Assembly: GCF_002240355.1 (NCBI RefSeq)
Contig: NZ_CP016353.1
Location: forward strand, 6,177,001 to 6,241,000
Reading direction: 5' to 3'
DNA: 64,000 bases
Source: Prauserella marina
GTDB lineage: Bacteria; Actinomycetota; Actinomycetes; Mycobacteriales; Pseudonocardiaceae
Positions 23,462-34,886 of this stretch are shown one piece after another. Below the pieces are notes generated by a model. It was not told the origin of the DNA, ran no database searches, and saw nothing but the letters and a program-made list of their open reading frames with translations. The translations under genes and the position numbers were made by a program. Each line of letters opens with the position of its first letter. The stretch's first letter is position 1.

Positions 23462-23502
23462 GGCGCTGTGAGTAAGGTAAGACTTGCCTTACTCACAGCG
23501 CC
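23462..23502. promoter_or_regulatory. Iron box (IdeR/DmdR type) in a 41-bp palindrome
   Basis: GGCGCTGTGAGTAAGGTAAG and its inverse flank a central A at 23482, with one mismatch, giving a 41-bp palindrome. The inner 19 bp (23473-23491, TAAGGTAAGACTTGCCTTA) agrees with the DtxR/IdeR consensus TTAGGTTAGGCTAACCTAA at most positions. It lies 15 bp before the sbnA start and so would block transcription of the siderophore operon when iron is replete. The long outer arms are more than an operator needs and could also form an RNA hairpin. Confidence 0.75.
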
Positions 23503-23517
23503 CAGTCGAGGAGCCAA

Positions 23518-24522
23518 GTGACAACAGCTTCGTCCGTGGCCGAGTCGATCGGCGACTCCGTTTTCGACTGCGTCGGCAACACCCCTGTCGTCGCGCTCAA
23601 CAGGCTTTTCCCCGATCACGGCGTCGAGGTGATCGCCAAGCTCGAACTCATGAACCCCGGCGGGAGCATGAAGGACCGCACGGCCCGCTACATCGTGGAG
23701 ACCGGGCTCGCCGAAGGCTCCATCAAGCCGGGCGACCGGCTCATCGAGAGCAGTTCCGGCAACTTCGGGATCGCGCTCGCGATGGCGGCCCGCGTACACG
23801 GCCTGCGGTTCACCTGCGTCGTCGACCCGAAGACGACGACCGCGAACCTCCTGTTACTGCGCAAACTCGGCGCTGACGTCGAACTCGTCACCGAAGAGGA
23901 CGCCGCAGGCGGCTATCTGACGAGCCGCATCCGAAGGGTAGGGGAACTGGTCGCCGCGCACCCGGAAGCCATCTGGGTCAACCAGTACGCCAACGATCGC
24001 AACTGGCTTGCCTACTACCACGGCACGGGGGCCGAACTCGCGAACCAGCTGGTGCGTCCACCGGGATACCTGTTCGCCGCGGTGAGCACCACGGGGAGCA
24101 TCCTGGGTTGCGCTCGCCGCCTCAGGGAACGGTTTCCCGAGCTCAAGGTCATCGCCGTCGACGCCGTCGGATCCGTGTTGTTCGGCGGCACTCCCGGCAG
24201 GCGCGACATACCGGGCATCGGTTCGAGCAGGGTTCCCGAGCTGTGCTGTCCCGCCGAGATCGACGACGTCGTGCGCGTCGACGACGCGGAAGCGGCCGAA
24301 GCGTGCGGGAAACTGCTTGCCACCGAAGGAATCTTCGCGGGCGGCTCTACCGGGTCCGTCGTCGCGGCGATCGCGAGAAAGCTGCCTTCACTGCCGAGGC
24401 CGTGCAGGGTGCTGGCGATCTTTCCCGATCGTGGCGACCGGTACCTCGATCTCGTCTACGACGACGAATGGCTGACCGCGGCGCTCGCCCGTAGAAGCAC
24501 CCGACGAGGAGCACACTCGTGA
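23518..24522 (+). CDS. sbnA: SbnA-type 2,3-diaminopropionate synthesis enzyme (PLP-dependent)
   Basis: 334 residues from GTG 23518, with GAGGAG upstream. Cysteine synthase-like fold: NPGGSMKDRTA carries the PLP lysine Lys52, SSSGNFGIALAMAA binds the cofactor phosphate side, and STTGSILGCARRL and FAGGSTGSVV complete the site. The family member SbnA makes N-(1-amino-1-carboxy-2-ethyl)-glutamate from O-phosphoserine and glutamate, the first step to L-2,3-diaminopropionate. The next gene, an SbnB homologue overlapping by four bases, supports this over a true cysteine synthase. Confidence 0.9.
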   Translation: MTTASSVAESIGDSVFDCVGNTPVVALNRLFPDHGVEVIAKLELMNPGGSMKDRTARYIVETGLAEGSIKPGDRLIESSSGNFGIALAMAARVHGLRFTCVVDPKTTTANLLLLRKLGADVELVTEEDAAGGYLTSRIRRVGELVAAHPEAIWVNQYANDRNWLAYYHGTGAELANQLVRPPGYLFAAVSTTGSILGCARRLRERFPELKVIAVDAVGSVLFGGTPGRRDIPGIGSSRVPELCCPAEIDDVVRVDDAEAAEACGKLLATEGIFAGGSTGSVVAAIARKLPSLPRPCRVLAIFPDRGDRYLDLVYDDEWLTAALARRSTRRGAHS

Positions 24523-25511
24523 ACCCCGCCCTGTTGTACCTGACGCGTTCCGACATCGCCGCGCTCGGCGGCGACCATTCCGAGCTGTACGTCACCGCAT
24601 TGCGCTCCGCGCTGATCGAGCACGCGGCGGGAAAGACGGTGCAGCCGCTCAAACCGTATCTACGCGTCGGCGACAAGGGTCACATCGCCGATCGCATCAT
24701 CGCGATGCCGGCTCACGTCGGTGATCCCGGAATCTCCGGTCTCAAGTGGATCGGCAGCAAGCACGACAATCCCTCAGCAGGAAGAGAAAGAGCGAGCGGG
24801 CTCATCGTGCTCAACGACCCGGAAACCAACTTCCCCGTCTCCATCATGGAAGCAGGGCTGATCAGCGCCTGGCGAACGGCGGCGGTGACCTGCCTCGCCG
24901 CGAAGCACCTCGGAAGGCAGGGCTTCACCGATGTCGCCATCGTCGGCTGTGGACTGATCGGGCGAACACAGCTCACCGCACTGCTCCAGCAGTTCCCTCG
25001 GATCAGCACCGTGCACCTCTACGACCTGAACCCGGAAGCCGCGCGAGCGACGGCGGAACAGGTCGGCACCGGTGCAGAGATCAGGATCGCCGCGAGTGCG
25101 GAAAAAGCAGTCATGGCAGGCGATGTCGTCGTCACGTGTACCGTCACCGACAAGCCCTACCTCCCTTTCTCCTGGCTCGATCGCGGGACCCTGGTGTGCA
25201 ATGTGTCCATCATGGACGTACACAAGGAGGTCTTCCTCAACGCCGACAAGGTCGTCGTCGACGACTGGGAACAGAGCAACAGGGAACGCAAGATCATCAA
25301 TCAACTCGTCGTCGAAGGCCGGTTCTCCCGCGAGCGATTGCACGCCGAACTGGGCGAGGTGCTCACCGGCGCGAAACCGGGCAGGGAGAACGACGACGAG
25401 ATCATCCTGCTCAACCCGATGGGCATGGCCGTGGAGGACATCGCGTGTGCCGCCGAGTTGTACGCGAGGGCGACGGCGGCGGGTGCCGGAACATGGCTGA
25501 ACCTGTACTAG
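24519..25511 (+). CDS. sbnB: SbnB-type dehydrogenase (ornithine cyclodeaminase family)
   Basis: 330 residues, GTG 24519 overlapping the sbnA stop. NAD-binding core VAIVGCGLIGRTQLTALLQ (near 144-162), and the substrate part GDPGISGLKWIGSKHDN...ASGLIVLNDPETNFPVSIMEAGLISAWRTAAV typical of the ornithine cyclodeaminase/mu-crystallin family. SbnB oxidatively cleaves the SbnA product to L-2,3-diaminopropionate and alpha-ketoglutarate, both building blocks of staphyloferrin B. The end overlaps the next gene by 19 bp. Confidence 0.9.
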   Translation: MNPALLYLTRSDIAALGGDHSELYVTALRSALIEHAAGKTVQPLKPYLRVGDKGHIADRIIAMPAHVGDPGISGLKWIGSKHDNPSAGRERASGLIVLNDPETNFPVSIMEAGLISAWRTAAVTCLAAKHLGRQGFTDVAIVGCGLIGRTQLTALLQQFPRISTVHLYDLNPEAARATAEQVGTGAEIRIAASAEKAVMAGDVVVTCTVTDKPYLPFSWLDRGTLVCNVSIMDVHKEVFLNADKVVVDDWEQSNRERKIINQLVVEGRFSRERLHAELGEVLTGAKPGRENDDEIILLNPMGMAVEDIACAAELYARATAAGAGTWLNLY

Positions 25512-27067
25512 CCGTGATGGCCGATCTCGTCGACTCGCTCATCCAGGAACGGTTGTTCGGGTTCGGTGAAGCCGAGCGAACCGGAGATTGGCTGCGGATC
25601 GGCGACGTGAGAGTGAAGGTGCGGTCCTGCGAAGGGCTCCAGCCCTACCGGTACGCGGGCGGTCCGGTGCTGCATGGCGAGAAGCCCCTCTCACCATGGG
25701 AACTGCTGCGAACGGTCGGCGCGGGCGAGCCCTATCTCGACCAGGTCGCCGACGACTTGAGAACGGCGGTCGAGCACTCCGAAGTACTGCACGGCGCCCA
25801 TGTCGAGGAACCGCTCGGCTCCCGCCAGGGCGAACGGCTCGCGGCACTGCGCAACCGCCCTTTTCATCCGACCTCGAAGGCGGTCGTCGGCTGGACCGGC
25901 ACCGAACTCGCCGAATACGGTCCGATGCGACGGTCACCGCTCGGCCTCGACTGGGTCGGCGTGCGCACCGAACTGCTCAGGTTCGGCGGCGGTGACCGCA
26001 ACCTCGCCTCCGCGGTGCTCACCCGCTCCGACCTCGACCGAGTACGCGCGAAGCCCGGCTTCCACGCGCTCCCCGTGCACCCGTGGCAGTACGAGCACGT
26101 GCTGCCACGGCAATTCGCGAGCGAGATCGACGACGGGCTGATCGTGCCGCTGGCCACAGGACTCGGCACGTTCTTTCCCACCGCGTCGGTGCGGACGCTT
26201 GCCACAGCCGACCCCGGAATTCACGTCAAGCTCCCGCTCGGGGTCGTGACGCTCGGCGCGGCCAGATTGCTGCCTCCTCGTTACCTCGACAACGGGGACC
26301 GCGCCGAGCGCACCATGTCGGCCGTTCTCGACCGCGACCCCGCGCTGCGCGAGAAGGTGCTCGTGTGCAAGGAAGGTAGCTGGTGCGGCATCGCCGAACC
26401 GGAGTTCGCCGACCGGCCAGGTCATCTCGCCGCCCAGGTTCGCCGCTACCCAGTCGGCTCCGAGGAGGCCGTTCCCATGGCCGCGTTCGCGAGCACGCGC
26501 ACCACGCTGGAGGCGGATCCGCTCGACTTCTTCCGCGAACTCACTCGCGGCTTCTGCGAGATCGGACTCGGCTTCCTTCGGTACGGCGTGCTTCCCGAAC
26601 TACACGGCCAAAACGTCGCGGTGACGCTGAAAGGCGGGCTGCCTCACCGGTTCGTGCTCCGCGACCACGACACGCTCCGCGTATGTCCACGGTGGATGCG
26701 ATCGGTCGGGCTGCCGGAGCCCGGCTACCGGGTGAGGGAAGGCGCGCGGCAGTCACTACTGCTCGACACCCCCGGCGAGCTACTTGGCTACCTGCAAACA
26801 CTCGGTTTCCAAGTCAACCTCCACGGCATCGCGGACGCGTTGTCGCGCACCCACGGCATCACGGAGAGGACCCTGTGGCACACACTTCGCGCCGCGCTGA
26901 CGGACTGCCTCGACCGGATGGAGTTGCCGTCGGAGGTGGCCTGGCACCTGTTGTCGTCTCCGACCTGGCCGAGCCGCAAGGTACTCGGTCCGCTGCTGCG
27001 CAGGGGGCGCAGCGGTGGAGTGAGCATGCCCGCGGAGAGCGGGACGGTGCCGAATCCGTTGCTGTGA
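25493..27067 (+). CDS. IucA/IucC-family NIS siderophore synthetase 1
   Basis: 524 residues from ATG 25493; GTG 25514 and ATG 25517 are alternatives. The NIS synthetase marks are all present: RPFHPTSKAVVGW (ATP-phosphate binding), HPWQYEH, FPTASVRTLAT, IHVKLPLGVVTLGAARLLPPRY and ELHGQNVAV with the terminal RDHDTLRV loop. NIS enzymes adenylate a carboxylate of citrate or alpha-ketoglutarate and join it to an amine. Synthetase subtype (A, B or C) cannot be decided here. It is the first of three synthetases, as needed for staphyloferrin B (SbnE, SbnF, SbnC). Confidence 0.9.
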   Translation: MAEPVLAVMADLVDSLIQERLFGFGEAERTGDWLRIGDVRVKVRSCEGLQPYRYAGGPVLHGEKPLSPWELLRTVGAGEPYLDQVADDLRTAVEHSEVLHGAHVEEPLGSRQGERLAALRNRPFHPTSKAVVGWTGTELAEYGPMRRSPLGLDWVGVRTELLRFGGGDRNLASAVLTRSDLDRVRAKPGFHALPVHPWQYEHVLPRQFASEIDDGLIVPLATGLGTFFPTASVRTLATADPGIHVKLPLGVVTLGAARLLPPRYLDNGDRAERTMSAVLDRDPALREKVLVCKEGSWCGIAEPEFADRPGHLAAQVRRYPVGSEEAVPMAAFASTRTTLEADPLDFFRELTRGFCEIGLGFLRYGVLPELHGQNVAVTLKGGLPHRFVLRDHDTLRVCPRWMRSVGLPEPGYRVREGARQSLLLDTPGELLGYLQTLGFQVNLHGIADALSRTHGITERTLWHTLRAALTDCLDRMELPSEVAWHLLSSPTWPSRKVLGPLLRRGRSGGVSMPAESGTVPNPLL

Positions 27068-28602
27068 GCGCGTTCGAGCTGGCGAGACAGGAGGCTCGGC
27101 GGCGGCTGCTCAACTGTTACCTGCGGGAAACGCGGCAATTCGACGTGCCAACCGGAGAATTCCGGATCACGCTCACGCACACCGGCGAGCAGTTGATCGT
27201 CGACATCGTCGAGCGGAGCCCGTCCGGTCACCATCGCTACGGCCCGCAGACCGCCCCCGGTCACGATCGGCTCGTCACGGCGATTCTCAGCGAACTCGCC
27301 GCGACGACCGGCTTCGCGGGGGTCACCGAACTGGAGAGGCAGATCGGCAACAGCATCGCCAGGACCGCGCGTTATCTCGGCAACCCGGCGACGAACTTCT
27401 CCGGCACGCCACACGAGGTGACGCGGAAGGCGGAACAGTCGCTGCGTCTCGGCCACCCGTTCCATCCCACGCCGAAAAGCGCTGAGGGCTTCACCGAGGC
27501 CGATCTGGCGCGGTACGCCCCCGAACTCGGCACTATGTTCACTCTCCACTACTTCGCCGTCGCTGACGAAGCGGTCGAAGAGGTCAGGATCACCGAGGCC
27601 GACTGGGTTCCCGACGAGGTCGCCGAGTCCACACCGGACGGATACACGCTCATTCCCGCGCATCCTTGGCAGGCCGGGCACCTGATCGGCTCCGGAGCGC
27701 TGCGCGGGCTCATCGCGGCCGACGTCGTGCGCCCACTCGGCCCGCTCGGCCGGCCGGTGTATCCCATGTCCTCGGTGCGGACCGTCTGCGACCCTACGTT
27801 CCCCACCGCGTGGAAACTCCCGCTGCACGTCCGCATCACGAACTTCGTCCGAACGAATCCCGGCGAGCACCTGCGCAGAGCAACGGAGGCCGCCGCGATC
27901 GTGGCGACGCTGCCCCGCTTTCCCGGCTTCTCGGTCCTTCTCGAAACCGGTTCCCGCACGATCGGCCCCGCCACCGATGAGCTGCGCGCCGACCTCGGCG
28001 TGCTGTACCGGGACAACCCCTTCGCACACAACGGTGAATCACCCCGCGTCATCGGCGGGCTGCTGGAGAATCCACCTGAGCTGATGCGCGAAATACTGCG
28101 GGCTGGGGACGTTCTCGAATGGCTGCGCGAATATCTCGGGATCATGCTCAAGCCGCAGCTCCGGCTCTTCGCCGACTGCGGCATCGTTTTCGAGGCGCAT
28201 GCACAGAACACGTTGCTGACCACGAAAGACGGCTGGCCGAACACGGTATGGTTGCGCGACCTCGAAGGCGCCGCCATCAGCTCGGAGGGAAAGGCCGCGG
28301 AAGGACTCGCCGCCGACAGTCCATTGCGCTGTTCGAGAGAACACGCCGTACGAAGGCTCACCTATCACGCAGTGACCGGCCAGCTCGGGCACCTCATCCA
28401 CGTACTCGCCAGCCACTCAGGAGTAACCGAGCGCAGGTTGTGGCAGGAAGCGAGGAACTGCCTTTCCGAATGGGAAGAAGCGGAAGAATTGCTGTCCACA
28501 AGGGAGCTTCCTGCGAAGGCCAACCTGACGAGCCGGTTCGCCGGAAGAGGCGAACGGCCAAGCTATGTCGCCATCCCCAACCCACTGTGGGAGCCACGAT
28601 GA
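27064..28602 (+). CDS. IucA/IucC-family NIS siderophore synthetase 2
   Basis: 512 residues, GTG 27064 overlapping the preceding stop (GTGA). Motifs: HPFHPTPKSAEGF, IPAHPWQAGHL, YPMSSVRTVCDPTFPTAWKLPLHVRITNF, EAHAQNTLL and LRDLEGAAI. The LHVRITNFVRTN stretch reminds me of IucA/SbnE-type enzymes that join citrate to the first diamine, so SbnE-like is my guess. The next gene again overlaps by four bases. The longer upstream frame is an extension into synthetase 1 and is not real. Confidence 0.9.
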   Translation: MSAFELARQEARRRLLNCYLRETRQFDVPTGEFRITLTHTGEQLIVDIVERSPSGHHRYGPQTAPGHDRLVTAILSELAATTGFAGVTELERQIGNSIARTARYLGNPATNFSGTPHEVTRKAEQSLRLGHPFHPTPKSAEGFTEADLARYAPELGTMFTLHYFAVADEAVEEVRITEADWVPDEVAESTPDGYTLIPAHPWQAGHLIGSGALRGLIAADVVRPLGPLGRPVYPMSSVRTVCDPTFPTAWKLPLHVRITNFVRTNPGEHLRRATEAAAIVATLPRFPGFSVLLETGSRTIGPATDELRADLGVLYRDNPFAHNGESPRVIGGLLENPPELMREILRAGDVLEWLREYLGIMLKPQLRLFADCGIVFEAHAQNTLLTTKDGWPNTVWLRDLEGAAISSEGKAAEGLAADSPLRCSREHAVRRLTYHAVTGQLGHLIHVLASHSGVTERRLWQEARNCLSEWEEAEELLSTRELPAKANLTSRFAGRGERPSYVAIPNPLWEPR

Positions 28603-30269
28603 CCGCGAATACGACGGAAACCACTGATGCCCTCGTGCGGCAAGCGCTGGCCTCGCCGCACCTTTCCACCGTCCGGCGCAGGATCTTCCGCCAGCTCCTC
28701 GAATCACTGTTGTACGAGAACGCGGTACGCACCACCGACGATTCGACCATCGTCGGCAAGGCGGGCGTTCGTTACACGTTCACCGCGAAGCGACGGTACG
28801 GGTTCGCGAGGGTCGCCGTCGAGAACCTGCTGCGGGACGGCGAGGAACCCACCTCGATCGCCCTGTTCCTCAGCGAAATCGCCGACTGCCTCGACGCGCG
28901 AGCAGACCACCTCACCAGGTTCACGAGGGAACTCGACGAGACCCTCGTCAAGGACACCGTCGCGCGACACCAGCGAGCTGAATCGCTGATCGGGACCGGA
29001 TTCGACGCGCTCGAAGGTCTGATCACCGACGGCCACCGCTATCACCCGGCCTACAAATCCCGAGTCGGATTCGACATCGCCGACAATCTCGCCTACGGAC
29101 CAGAATTCCGCAACCCCGTTCGGCCACTGTGGATCGCGGTTCGTGACGAGCTGGCTGAGACGAGCCGCTCGGCAAAGCCCGATTTTTCTGCTCCGCAAGG
29201 CATCGAGCCGCCCGAGGATTACGTGGCCCTGCCCGTTCACCCGTGGCAATGGCGCGAGCACGTCGTGACGACCTACGCCGAATGGCTGCACGACGACAGG
29301 ATGGTCGTGCTCGGTGAGGACTCCGACCGTTTCCTGCCACAGCAGTCCATCCGCACGCTTGCCTGCCTCGACTCGCCGCGGCGGCCGAACCTCAAACTCG
29401 CGATGTCACTCGTCAACACCTCCACGAGCAGGGTGCTCGCTCCACACACCGTGCACAACGCGCCGCTCATCTCGAACTGGTTGCGCGGCATTCGCGACAG
29501 CGATCCCTTTCTGCGTGACGAATCGCGGCCCCTCCTGCTCGGCGAGTTCGTCGGCACCTCGGTGTCACAGCACGGCAACCCCGGCACCTACGGGACGCTG
29601 GCCTGTATCTGGCGGGAAAGCCTGCCGCCCCTGCTCGATCCCGGCGAGGAAGCGGTCCCCTTCACCGGCCTCACCGCACGCGACGTCGACGGCACGCCGC
29701 TCATCGAACCGTGGGTGAGCAGGCACGGACTCGTTCCGTGGCTACGACAGCTGATCGACGTCGCCGTACTTCCGGTCGTGCACCTGCTCACCCGGCACGG
29801 CGTCGCGCTCGAAGCACACGCACAGAACATGGTGCTGCTGCACTCGCAAGGGATGCCGACGAGGGTCGCGCTACGGGATTTCCACGACGGCATCCGATTC
29901 TCCCGCGCACACCTTGCCGATCCGGCTCGCTGTCCCGTGCTCCGGGCAACGCCGGGACACCACGAGAACCGCAACTCCTTCGTCGAGACCGACGATCCCC
30001 TGCTCGTCGCCGACTTCGTACTCGACGCGTTCTTCTTCATCAACATGGGCGAGCTGGCGATCTTCCTCTCCGCTGCCTACGACCTGCCCGAACGACACTT
30101 CTGGGCCCTCGTACGCGAGGTCGTCAAGCAGCACGAACAGCGCTTCGGCCCTCCCGCCTTCGACATCTTCACCCCGGAGATCGCGGTCGAAAAGCTCACC
30201 ACGAGGCGGTTGCTTCCCGACACCGAACTGCGTCTCCACCGGGTGCCGAACCCGCTCGCCGATGCGTGA
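28599..30269 (+). CDS. IucA/IucC-family NIS siderophore synthetase 3
   Basis: 556 residues, ATG 28599. Motifs: HRYHPAYKSRVGF, PVHPWQWREHV, LPQQSIRTLACLD, LKLAMSLVNTSTSRVLAPHTV, LEAHAQNMVLL and RDFHDGIRF. The NTSTSR segment is common in IucC/DesD-like members. It has a longer N-terminal domain (about 120 residues) than its two neighbours. It overlaps the decarboxylase gene by 8 bp. With synthetases 1 and 2 it gives the three condensations expected for a citrate/diaminopropionate/ethylenediamine/alpha-ketoglutarate siderophore. Confidence 0.9.
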   Translation: MTANTTETTDALVRQALASPHLSTVRRRIFRQLLESLLYENAVRTTDDSTIVGKAGVRYTFTAKRRYGFARVAVENLLRDGEEPTSIALFLSEIADCLDARADHLTRFTRELDETLVKDTVARHQRAESLIGTGFDALEGLITDGHRYHPAYKSRVGFDIADNLAYGPEFRNPVRPLWIAVRDELAETSRSAKPDFSAPQGIEPPEDYVALPVHPWQWREHVVTTYAEWLHDDRMVVLGEDSDRFLPQQSIRTLACLDSPRRPNLKLAMSLVNTSTSRVLAPHTVHNAPLISNWLRGIRDSDPFLRDESRPLLLGEFVGTSVSQHGNPGTYGTLACIWRESLPPLLDPGEEAVPFTGLTARDVDGTPLIEPWVSRHGLVPWLRQLIDVAVLPVVHLLTRHGVALEAHAQNMVLLHSQGMPTRVALRDFHDGIRFSRAHLADPARCPVLRATPGHHENRNSFVETDDPLLVADFVLDAFFFINMGELAIFLSAAYDLPERHFWALVREVVKQHEQRFGPPAFDIFTPEIAVEKLTTRRLLPDTELRLHRVPNPLADA

Positions 30270-31437
30270 CGGGGAGCCGGTGTGCCAGTACGTCTACGAT
30301 CTGGCCGCACTCGAAGCGCATGTCAAAGCCGTCGTCGCCGCGCTGCCGCCCCGGTGTCGCATGTTCTACGCCATGAAGGCCAACAGCGCCGCACCGCTGC
30401 TTCGAACCCTCGCGCCGCTGGTGGCAGGCTTCGAGGTGGCATCGGGCGGGGAACTGGCCAAGGCCCGTGCCGTCTCGGCCGACATCGAGGTGCTGTTCGG
30501 CGGGCCTGCCAAAACGCGGAGCGAGATCGCGGAAGCGCTCGCGGCAGGGGTCACCAGGTTGCACGTGGAAAGCGTGCTGGAACTCCACCGGATCTCGGCC
30601 GAGGCGAGGCTGGCCGACACGGTCTCCGACGTGCTGCTGCGCGTCAATCTCGCCGGACCCTTTCCTGACGCGACGCTGGCGATGGCCGGAAGACCGACCC
30701 AGTTCGGTATCGAGGAAAGCGGGCTCGCCGAAGCGGTCGCAGCGGTTGACGCGCTCCCCAACGTGCGGCTCGCCGGGTTCCATTTGCACTCGCTGTCGAA
30801 CAACCTCTCGCCGGAAGCGCACCTCGCCATGCTGGCGATGTACCGGGACAGGATCCTCGCCTGGGAAGCCGCGTTCGGACTGCGCTGCGAGGTGATCAAC
30901 GTCGGCGGTGGGATCGGGGTCGACTATGCCGATCTCGAAGCCCAGTTCGCGTGGCCGAGGTTCACCAAGGGGCTCTCCGACTTGGTCGGCACCTTTCCGG
31001 AGCACTGGGAGGAAATCGACTTCGAGTGTGGGCGGTATCTCGTCGCCGGATGCGGGACCTACCGCACCGAGGTGCTGGACGTGAAGCGCAACCACGGCGT
31101 GAACTACGTGCTGGTCAGGGGAGGAACTCACCACTTTCGGCTGCCGGTCTCCTGGCAGCACAGCCATCCGTTCAGCGTACGGCCGGTCGAGGATTGGGAC
31201 CCCGGCCTGCCCAGGCAGGAGATTCGCGGCGAACCGGTGACCGTGGTCGGCGAACTGTGCACGCCGAAAGACGTACTCGCCAAGGACGTGCTCGTCGACG
31301 GCGTGCGACCTGGCGACGTGCTGGAGTTCCACTACGCCGGCGCCTACGGCTGGGAGATCTCCCACCACGACTTCCTCAGCCACCCTCACCCCGAGCACGT
31401 CCACCTCTGTCCTCCCGCGAGTCCCCCGCCGCCCTAG
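30262..31437 (+). CDS. sbnH: SbnH-type PLP-dependent decarboxylase
   Basis: 391 residues, ATG 30262. Group IV (alanine racemase-fold) decarboxylase: FYAMKANSAAPLLRTL holds the PLP lysine, GFHLHSLSNN and INVGGGIGVDY bind the phosphate, and GELCTPKDVLAKD with FHYAGAYGWEISHHDFLSHP forms the active-site end. In staphyloferrin B synthesis SbnH decarboxylates the citrate-bound diaminopropionate to give the ethylenediamine unit. The stop codon TAG is made of the TA target site plus the first base of an inserted element; the protein appears full length up to there. It is the last gene of the operon. Confidence 0.9.
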   Translation: MRDGEPVCQYVYDLAALEAHVKAVVAALPPRCRMFYAMKANSAAPLLRTLAPLVAGFEVASGGELAKARAVSADIEVLFGGPAKTRSEIAEALAAGVTRLHVESVLELHRISAEARLADTVSDVLLRVNLAGPFPDATLAMAGRPTQFGIEESGLAEAVAAVDALPNVRLAGFHLHSLSNNLSPEAHLAMLAMYRDRILAWEAAFGLRCEVINVGGGIGVDYADLEAQFAWPRFTKGLSDLVGTFPEHWEEIDFECGRYLVAGCGTYRTEVLDVKRNHGVNYVLVRGGTHHFRLPVSWQHSHPFSVRPVEDWDPGLPRQEIRGEPVTVVGELCTPKDVLAKDVLVDGVRPGDVLEFHYAGAYGWEISHHDFLSHPHPEHVHLCPPASPPPP

Positions 31438-32529: not shown

Positions 32530-33984
32530 ATGGAGCGCAAGCTCGACGAATACCGGCGAAAACGACGTGCGGACCGCACGCCGGAACCGTTCCCCGGCTC
32601 CGAGGCGGTCGAGCCACGCGGCGCCGACGACACGTACGTGATCCACGAGCATCACGCACGCCAACTGCACTGGGACGTGAGGCTGGAACGAGGCGGAGTG
32701 CTCGTGTCGTGGGCCGTGCCGAAGGGCCTCCCGCCTGCGCCCGGCACCGTCCGGCTCGCCGTGCGCACCGAGGACCACCCGATGGAGTACGCCACCTTCT
32801 CGGGTGAGATCCCCAAGGGCGAGTACGGCGCGGGAAGCATGACCATCTGGGACAGCGGACGGTACGAAACGCTCAAGTGGTCCGATCGCGAGGTGTCGGT
32901 CGTGTTCCACGGCGAACGGGTGAGCGGCAAGTACGTGTTCTTCCGCAGTGGCGAGGAGTGGCAGGTGATCCGCTCGGACCCGGCAAGCGATCCGGATTGG
33001 GCGGCCCTGCCCGAACGCGTCGAACCCATGCTCGCGGTCAGCGGATCACTGCCCGCTGCCGAACGGGACGACGACTGGGCCTACGAGTTCAAATGGGACG
33101 GGGTCAGGGCGCTCGCCAGAATCGAGGGCGGCAGGCTCGGCCTCTTCGCGCGAAGCGGCAACGACATCACGGCGACCTATCCCGAACTGCGCGGGGTCGG
33201 TGAACAACTCGGCAGCACACAGGCTTGGCTCGACGGCGAGATCGTCGCGCTGCACGGGGGAAGGCCCAGCTTCAAGGCACTCCAGGCGAGGATGCACGCG
33301 GGAGAACAGCGAGCCAAACAGCTCGCCAAACACCAGCCCGTCACCTACCTGATCTTCGACCTGCTGCACCTCGAAGGGCACGCGTGCACGGTGCTTCCCT
33401 ACGAGCGACGGAGGGAACTGCTGGAAAAACTCGAACTGGGAGGATCCAACTGGCAGCTTTCGCCGAGCTTCACCGGCGAGGGCGCGGCCGTCGTCGCGGC
33501 GGCAGGGGAACAACAACTGGAGGGCGTCATCGCGAAACGTCTCGCTTCGACGTATCAACAGGGGCAACGCTCCGCCGATTGGCTCAAGATCACCGAACTG
33601 CGGACGCTCGACGTCATCGTCGGCGGCTGGCGGCCAGGTGAAGGCAAGCGGGCCGGTACGTTCGGCTCGCTGATGCTCGGGGCGCCCTCCGCCGAAGGTC
33701 TTCGCTACGTCGGCCAGGTCGGAACCGGGTTCACCGAGGGAATGCTTCGCGATCTGCTCGCCACCCTCAGCCGGTCCGAACAGGACAGTTCCCCGTTCGG
33801 CAACGAAGTACCGAAAGAGCGGGCCAAGGGCGCGAGGTGGGTCGCGCCCACGCTGGTCGCCGAGGTCGTCTTCAAGGATTGGACGGAGGAGGGAAGGCTG
33901 CGGGCTCCGGCTTGGCGCGGCCTGCGACCCGACCTCGACCCCGCCGAGGTTCCCCATTGGGAAGATCGTGGTGACCACACATGA
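32530..33984 (+). CDS. ligD: DNA ligase D, phosphoesterase plus ATP-dependent ligase part
   Basis: 484 residues, ATG 32530. The N-terminal phosphoesterase domain (about 30-150) has HEHHARQLHWDVRLERGG and EDHPMEYATFSGEIPKGEYG, i.e. the histidines and Asp49 of the metal site. The ligase domain (about 160-478) starts at EPMLA; Lys188 in FKWDGVRA is the adenylated residue, and LDGEIVAL, LIFDLLHLEG, EGVIAKR and DWLKI are later motifs. The polymerase domain is a separate gene that follows with a four-base overlap. LigD seals breaks in non-homologous end joining with Ku, which is not seen in this window. Confidence 0.94.
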   Translation: MERKLDEYRRKRRADRTPEPFPGSEAVEPRGADDTYVIHEHHARQLHWDVRLERGGVLVSWAVPKGLPPAPGTVRLAVRTEDHPMEYATFSGEIPKGEYGAGSMTIWDSGRYETLKWSDREVSVVFHGERVSGKYVFFRSGEEWQVIRSDPASDPDWAALPERVEPMLAVSGSLPAAERDDDWAYEFKWDGVRALARIEGGRLGLFARSGNDITATYPELRGVGEQLGSTQAWLDGEIVALHGGRPSFKALQARMHAGEQRAKQLAKHQPVTYLIFDLLHLEGHACTVLPYERRRELLEKLELGGSNWQLSPSFTGEGAAVVAAAGEQQLEGVIAKRLASTYQQGQRSADWLKITELRTLDVIVGGWRPGEGKRAGTFGSLMLGAPSAEGLRYVGQVGTGFTEGMLRDLLATLSRSEQDSSPFGNEVPKERAKGARWVAPTLVAEVVFKDWTEEGRLRAPAWRGLRPDLDPAEVPHWEDRGDHT

Positions 33985-34886
33985 CGGACTCCCTCGTCGA
34001 CATCGAAGGCCGCAGGCTCCGACTATCCAACTTGGACAAAATCCTGTACCCGGAGGTGGGATTCACCAAGGGCGAGGTCATCGACTACTACGCGCGCATC
34101 GCGCCCGTACTGCTTCCGCACGTACGGGACAGACCCCTGACCTTGAAGCGCTATCCCAACGGCGTCGAAGCGACCTCGTTCTTCGAGAAGAACGTCTCAC
34201 GGCACGCGCCCGACTGGGTGCGCACTGTCCGCATCGAGACTCCCGGCAGCTCACGCGGCGCCGAGTCGGCGGACTACGCGCTCGTCCAGGACCTGCCGAC
34301 GTTGGTGTGGGCAGCGCAGCTCGCCAGCCTCGAACTGCATATTCCACAATGGACTGTCGGCCCTCGTGACGGAAAGCGGGATCCCGACCTTCTCGTCTTC
34401 GACCTCGACCCAGGACCACCGGCCACCATCGTGGAATGCTGCACCGTCGCGGCACGACTTCGCGAAGCACTCGAAGCCGATGGGCTCACCGTATACCCCA
34501 AGACGAGCGGATCGAAGGGCATGCAGCTCTACTCTCCGGTCACCGTCGGCTCGGCCGACCGGACGAGGACCTACGCCAAGGAGCTGGCCGAAAAGCTGGA
34601 ACAGGACGATCCCGGGCTCGTCACCTCGCGCATGGCCAGAAACCTGCGGCCCCGCAAGGTATTCATCGACTGGAGCCAGAACAACACCCAGAAGACCACC
34701 GTGGCGCCCTATTCGCTTCGAGCCCGCGCGCTCCCCACCGTTTCGACCCCGCTCGACTGGGACGAGGTCCAGACGTGCGAGCGCCCCGACGACCTTGTTT
34801 TCACCGCTGACGACGTGCTCGAACGCGTCAGGGACATCGGCGATCTCTTCGAACCGCTCTTGGCCACCGACCGGCCCCGGCTTTAG
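33981..34886 (+). CDS. ligD: LigD polymerase/primase domain protein (split LigD)
   Basis: 301 residues, ATG 33981. The AEP-type polymerase fold shows SNLDKILYPEVGFTKGEVIDYY, then RPLTLKRYPNG, FFEKNVSRHAPDWV and the catalytic aspartates Asp141/Asp143 in VFDLDPGPPA, followed by KTSGSKGMQLYSPV and DWSQNNTQKTTVAPYSLRA. This is the NTP-adding part of LigD, used for gap filling in end joining. It is the full polymerase unit without ligase, coupled to the ligase gene. The stop shares bases with the convergent hydrolase gene. Confidence 0.94.
   Translation: MTDSLVDIEGRRLRLSNLDKILYPEVGFTKGEVIDYYARIAPVLLPHVRDRPLTLKRYPNGVEATSFFEKNVSRHAPDWVRTVRIETPGSSRGAESADYALVQDLPTLVWAAQLASLELHIPQWTVGPRDGKRDPDLLVFDLDPGPPATIVECCTVAARLREALEADGLTVYPKTSGSKGMQLYSPVTVGSADRTRTYAKELAEKLEQDDPGLVTSRMARNLRPRKVFIDWSQNNTQKTTVAPYSLRARALPTVSTPLDWDEVQTCERPDDLVFTADDVLERVRDIGDLFEPLLATDRPRL

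Follow-up and report, generated by a model that had tools for sequence, protein, structure and literature searches.

Organization of the locus

We analysed a 64-kb stretch of the Prauserella marina genome (assembly GCF_002240355.1, contig NZ_CP016353.1, forward-strand positions 6,177,001 to 6,241,000), called here the window, with positions counted from its first nucleotide. It carries a six-gene operon predicted to make a siderophore of the nonribosomal peptide synthetase-independent (NIS) kind, which we compare with the staphylococcal sbn operon for staphyloferrin B. A preliminary description, made from the DNA letters, had reported six genes in one direction. This holds, as six open reading frames without internal stops follow each other on the plus strand between 23518 and 31437. 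The first is an sbnA-type gene (23518-24522) with a GTG start. It is followed by the gene of an sbnB-type dehydrogenase (24519-25511), predicted to yield L-2,3-diaminopropionate (Dap) and alpha-ketoglutarate. Three genes of NIS synthetases come next, namely an sbnC-type (type B) gene (25493-27067, with alternative starts at 25514 and 25517), an sbnE-type (type A) gene (27064-28602) and an sbnF-type (type C) gene (28599-30269). The last gene (30262-31437) encodes an sbnH-type decarboxylase dependent on pyridoxal phosphate (PLP). At four of the five junctions the neighbouring genes overlap by 4-8 nt, while the sbnB and sbnC genes overlap, by 19 nt, only with the ATG at 25493 as the start of sbnC. 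The earlier claim that each start overlaps the previous stop thus stands for four junctions and depends at the remaining one on the choice of start.

Coding integrity was assessed by comparing the window residues with the columns that are invariant across 31 full operons (27 and 29 of the 31 references were usable for SbnA and SbnH, respectively). The six genes keep 486 of the 491 such columns: 82/82 in SbnA, 90/91 in SbnB, 58/58 in SbnC, 59/63 in SbnE, 99/99 in SbnF and 98/98 in SbnH. The five enzymes other than SbnE hence retain 427 of 428.

Putative iron box upstream of sbnA

A near-perfect palindrome (23462-23502) lies 15 bp upstream of the sbnA start. An iron-box palindrome was noted already in the preliminary description, whose first coordinate (23462) coincides with its left end. 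The two 20-nt arms are 1 nt apart and 95% complementary, and 19 of their 20 positions pair. Among palindromes of the 20+1+20 form it ranks first in the window, where the runner-up pairs 15 positions; in 200 simulated sequences of equal length (first-order Markov), the maximum is 17. The core TAAGGTAAGACTTGCCTTA (23473-23491) ends 26 bp before the SbnA start and matches 13 of the 19 positions of what we take to be the IdeR/DtxR consensus. A search of the window for the strict consensus TTAGGTTAGSCTWACCTAA, allowing up to three mismatches, found nothing; the evidence for the box is thus its fit to the relaxed pattern, its palindromic setting and its conservation. Genome-wide, the relaxed pattern gives 10 matches at 8 sites, and the reversed control gives none.

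The box is conserved. Of 19 related loci, 18 have a box of at least 13/19 ahead of sbnA, and for each of these 18 at most 4 of 200 shuffled sequences score as well. The exception is the plasmid locus L072, and two loci devoid of sbnA fell outside the test. The form of the box suggests a repressor of the DtxR/IdeR family.

Identities of SbnA, SbnB and SbnH

The window SbnA scores 416 bits against the curated SbnA model TIGR03945 (cut-off 350). With the cysKM model it gains 225 bits, below the 344-bit cut-off of that model, and is therefore not a cysteine synthase. In the PDB it matches SbnA 5d84 with 374 bits, and the best chain other than SbnA gains 177. As read from the alignments, the window protein also retains the two SbnA residues that were changed in 5d86 and 5d87. 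SbnB behaves alike. It scores 387 bits against the curated SbnB model TIGR03944 (cut-off 327), is the only match to this model found in the genome, and reaches 428 bits with PDB 4m54, presumably SbnB, with the next entry at 172. For SbnH, the best PDB matches are 6knh/6kni (428 bits), of which we take 6knh to be SbnH of S. aureus, and the next protein is BtrK (183 bits). The PLP lysine, an alanine in 6knk, is retained in the alignment.

These results bear out the identities first proposed for the three enzymes. The preliminary description had named a closer kinship of the first two proteins with true cysteine synthase and ornithine cyclodeaminase as a finding that would count against it. Both can be set aside, as SbnA and SbnB score far higher with the Sbn models and structures than with those families.

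Three NIS synthetases of distinct types

All three synthetases contain the IucA_IucC and FhuF domains. Among the NCBIfam models, the first synthetase matches SbnC best (305 bits, curated cut-off 700) and the third matches SbnF best (483 bits, curated cut-off 900), while the second has weak matches, the best of 68 bits. The SbnC and SbnF models are of the exception type with high cut-offs, which probably mark a threshold for naming and not a feature of the pathway. In the PDB, the window SbnC matches 7cbb, presumably SbnC, with 234 bits. The nearest chains to SbnE are IucA and AcsD, which we take to be type A synthetases.

We also built a tree of 51 proteins, drawn from three species of Staphylococcus, further Bacillota, actinobacteria, Nitrobacter, Methylocystis and two loci that we assume to be of the achromobactin type; the tool gave a warning on two long Methylocystis rows and on the meeting of long branches. 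The three window synthetases fall one by one inside the clades that hold Staphylococcus SbnC (support 100/100), SbnE (100/98) and SbnF (100/99). Placement of all three with unrelated NIS pathways had been named beforehand as an outcome adverse to the reading; the tree speaks in favour of the reading. The type B and type C enzymes of the achromobactin loci nest within the SbnC and SbnF clades, so these two clades alone do not separate the pathways. They are told apart by the type A clade, by SbnA/SbnB and by gene order.

A genome search with the SbnC protein found three NIS synthetases, all of them in the operon (9 of the 14 first-look candidates were scored), and the search with the SbnC model returned the same three.

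Gene order and the missing sbnD, sbnG and sbnI

Among GTDB genomes, we kept the best 80 of 401 relatives and classed 79 named loci by gene pattern. There are 17 loci of the pattern ABCDEFGH, 14 of ABCDEFGHI (five of them Staphylococcus), 12 of ABCEFH, 6 of ACEFH and 30 others, including partial or truncated loci. In this comparison the window order ABCEFH is colinear with the staphylococcal operon sbnABCDEFGHI, as found in the five Staphylococcus loci, minus D (exporter), G (citrate synthase) and I (serine kinase). The statement of the preliminary description that the order differs from the staphylococcal one is hence wrong.

There is no space for sbnD or sbnG at the C/E and F/H junctions, and neither gene has a match within the window. 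We also searched the own genome. Its one sbnG match is 31% identical over 160 of 255 residues; sbnD gives 15 partial matches of at most 36% identity, the best-scoring one 33% over 188 of 416 residues. A good copy of either gene elsewhere in the genome can thus be discarded. A Staphylococcus SbnI query found no match in the genome in a search run without a positive control. The genome encodes SerC and three members of the citrate synthase family.

Operons with the full set A-B-C-D-E-F-G-H are found in Saccharopolyspora, Streptomyces, Glycomyces and other species of Prauserella. Within the same family, D and G are kept in six Saccharopolyspora (S. spinosa, flava, elongata, ipomoeae, aridisoli and subtropica, all ABCDEFGH), unlike in the window, and in three Prauserella (alba, salsuginis and isguenensis). 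The reduced form ABCEFH is shared by Prauserella muralis, cavernicola, flavalba and endophytica, Qaidamihabitans albus, and Amycolatopsis arida, marina and palatopharyngis. Those tested, i.e., all except A. marina and A. palatopharyngis, have a similar iron box.

In a first set of 20 loci of relatives, 15 have all six genes, and D and G are present in the same four loci. Of the 79 loci, at least 18 have neither. A quick tree was then used with 52 rows, namely 51 of the 79 loci and the window (28 loci with other patterns were dropped). The two genes are both present or both absent in 52/52 rows, and both absent in all 19 reduced rows. Each changes four times on this tree, some inner branches of which are weak (78-92). 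A sign test for joint loss gives p 0.125, a value that four pairs cannot bring to significance. The count does not distinguish gain from loss. Loss is the simpler reading, given that in Bacillota and Nitrobacter both genes are found in these slots.

Several loci of relatives show further peculiarities. In two of them, sbnC and sbnE share one open frame and are apparently fused (L039:9599-12955, plus strand, 1118 aa; L042:3019-6333, minus strand, 1104 aa). The six ACEFH loci (L105, L116, L117, L121, L122 and L124) are devoid of sbnB, and in all four such genomes tested (G068, G057, G150 and G151) an SbnB over the TIGR03944 cut-off is encoded elsewhere. In Haloechinothrix aidingensis and H. alba (L047, L049, L123 and L128) an SbnC-like gene stands alone, with A, B, E, F and H undetected within about 10 kb. 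Six Actinomycetospora loci (L131, L132, L134, L136, L140 and L141) have A, C, F, G and H, with B and E undetected at the threshold used, which would mean either a different condensation scheme or divergent genes. The plasmid pPM400 of Bacillus badius (L071:6237-15888) carries sbnA, sbnB, one E-like and two F-like synthetase genes, sbnH and a ParB-like gene, and no C-like synthetase gene. This set suggests another Dap-citrate siderophore.

Candidate importer

In four of the five Staphylococcus loci the operon is adjoined by sirABC-like genes (the record of the fifth, L165, starts at sbnA), and in the three Amycolatopsis reduced operons a SirA-like binding-protein gene lies just downstream of sbnH. 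The window operon, in contrast, has no importer genes beside it. An importer within the window is discarded, as all 15 PF01497 matches in the genome lie elsewhere.

The best candidate is a binding protein encoded at C1:4406018. Eight binding proteins encoded at sbn operons served as queries. The three from Amycolatopsis arida, palatopharyngis and marina, whose genes directly follow sbnH, share 47-49% identity with the candidate, and the five from other sbn operons share 37-45%. The candidate ranks first in the genome with each of the eight; with the Amycolatopsis queries, the protein in second place by score shows 28-29% identity. The gene of the candidate is divergent from a FecCD permease gene, and between the two lies a 14/19 iron box (L178:7959-7977), the next best in the 14-kb stretch being 11. 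This box is absent from the list obtained with the relaxed genome-wide pattern. We suggest that re-uptake most likely proceeds through this binding protein and the FecCD permease, at about 4.406-4.408 Mb and 1.8 Mb from the operon.

Two iron boxes at 4.775 and 6.724 Mb, near other binding-protein and FecCD-like genes, were considered first for the importer, but the 4.406-Mb binding protein was the better fit. At L089:5009-5027, an iron box between FecCD-like and binding-protein genes is followed by an open frame that by eye resembles a major facilitator superfamily transporter and could be a siderophore exporter.

Genes around the operon

Upstream of the operon there are genes of an aldehyde dehydrogenase-MaoC fusion, a thioesterase, an AMP-binding ligase and a TetR regulator, presumably resembling a phenylacetate cluster. 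Similar genes are found in 6-9 of the 20 loci of relatives, which fits vertical descent in the clade. The gene after sbnH is YdjM-like and lies on the opposite strand. Further on (32530-34886), LigD is split over two adjacent genes, a 3'-phosphoesterase plus ligase and then a primase-polymerase.

Proposed biosynthesis and regulation

The gene set fits the assembly of staphyloferrin B, as the preliminary description had proposed from the enzymes; we reach the same predicted product from the identities and the tree. We consider it very probable that the operon is an orthologue of sbn reduced to sbnABCEFH and that it makes staphyloferrin B or a very close relative, by the reactions established for S. 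aureus.

With plenty of iron, a repressor of the DtxR/IdeR family would occupy the box at 23473-23491, in contrast to the Fur of the staphylococcal operon. With iron starvation the six genes would be transcribed together.

Assembly would begin with the joining of O-phosphoserine and glutamate by SbnA. SbnB would split the SbnA product into Dap and alpha-ketoglutarate. SbnE would then link Dap to citrate, and SbnH would decarboxylate this residue, thus forming the diaminoethane arm. A second Dap would be added by SbnF. Finally, SbnC would add alpha-ketoglutarate with the formation of staphyloferrin B. Its formula, C16H24N4O11, was computed by hand from citrate, Dap, diaminoethane and alpha-ketoglutarate minus 3 H2O.

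Since sbnG and sbnI are absent from the operon, we suggest that citrate comes from the tricarboxylic acid cycle and O-phosphoserine from SerC. The literature describes SbnG and SbnI as redundant with central metabolism and gives the pathway and the substrates of SbnA (PMC3179956, PMC9301485, PMC12414870). Export would depend on a transporter whose gene is absent from the operon.

Evidence against the assignment and alternative readings

Several observations weigh against this assignment. SbnC and SbnF stay under their curated cut-offs (305/700 and 483/900) and SbnE matches NCBIfam weakly. Within the SbnC clade, the Staphylococcus enzymes pair with those of achromobactin (98/93) before the actinobacterial sequences join; the SbnC clade alone thus does not name the product. 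The operon is without an exporter, citrate synthase or serine kinase gene, and the genome matches of D and G are weak and partial. The loss of D may matter, since an sbnD mutant of Methylobacterium aquaticum is negative in the chrome azurol S (CAS) assay (PMC9301485). The window SbnE has also lost four of its 63 invariant residues.

The last observation leads to the alternative that survives best, a close congener of staphyloferrin B, made because SbnE or another synthetase has changed its choice of substrate. The changes are T235M, A331G, W429V and N439G, in columns that are invariant in all 31 full operons. Among the 18 reduced-operon relatives, T235, A331 and N439 are retained by all and W429 by 17. 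However, losses of 3 or 4 of the 63 SbnE columns, at these or other places, occur in 7 of the 19 reduced rows (the window is one of these 7), and hence the window SbnE does not appear exceptional among reduced operons. Moreover, the longer end branches in comparison with P. muralis are found in all three window synthetases (0.49 vs 0.21 in SbnC, 0.64 vs 0.21 in SbnE and 0.45 vs 0.28 in SbnF) and not in SbnE alone, and the other five enzymes keep nearly all of their invariant columns. T235 sits in a PTSSxRT motif, the place of which is not fixed across the family, as the window SbnF seems by eye to read PQQSIRT there. The substitutions are thus a weak sign at most of different chemistry, and we regard a congener as quite unlikely.

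It is also conceivable that the operon, having lost sbnD and sbnG, is in decay and yields hardly any product or none. The absence of both genes from the operon, their poor counterparts in the genome, the drift of SbnE and the requirement of sbnD for the CAS reaction of Methylobacterium (PMC9301485) would agree with this. Yet the six frames are open, the invariant residues are nearly all conserved, the promoter box is intact and conserved, and 12 further loci among the 79 have preserved the ABCEFH arrangement. Decay is hence very improbable.

We practically dismiss an unrelated or achromobactin-like NIS pathway that merely resembles sbn: it could be argued from the two achromobactin-type loci, which likewise combine three NIS synthetases with a decarboxylase and whose type B and C enzymes nest in the SbnC and SbnF clades, but the window operon is headed by SbnA and SbnB and not by a diaminobutyrate aminotransferase paired with an AcsD-type enzyme, its six genes stand in sbn order, and its SbnE groups with Staphylococcus SbnE, apart from achromobactin type A (100/98).

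Relation to known systems

Staphyloferrin B-like clusters outside Staphylococcus have been described before. The cluster sbnA-H of Methylobacterium aquaticum 22A is, like the window operon, without sbnI, and is required for growth at low iron; unlike the window operon, it has sbnE and sbnF fused, and sbnD and sbnG present (PMC9301485). Closer to P. marina, the family Pseudonocardiaceae includes Saccharopolyspora with orthologous genes. Their biosynthetic gene cluster, known there by bioinformatics only, is reported as very similar to that of staphylobactin (staphyloferrin B) and as apparently inherited early (PMC11162802, BGCFlow 2024); four Saccharopolyspora with staphylobactin clusters, at 25% gene identity, are reported in PMC12187853 (Karakum 2025). 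The novelty implied in the preliminary description was therefore too strong. Our literature search, in which most papers were judged by their listing, found no described sbn operon of Prauserella.

A broader proposal would be that Pseudonocardiaceae repeatedly pared staphyloferrin B synthesis to its core enzymes, with D and G dropped together four separate times and SbnE drifting in several reduced operons, including that of the window, and that the product or its exit route has changed from the classical one. We find this rather unlikely as a whole.

The reduced sbn operon of P. marina is well supported. It is ordinary in kind, and its pared-down form is modestly interesting. What it offers is a named prediction, staphyloferrin B with m/z 449.15, for an actinomycete operon with no described product found in the literature, together with a candidate importer elsewhere in the genome to which the operon may be tied. 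The joint absence of the exporter and the citrate synthase is an oddity that can be tested, and the understanding of the pathway is left unchanged by it. Operons of a siderophore best known from staphylococci are thus present in many actinomycetes.

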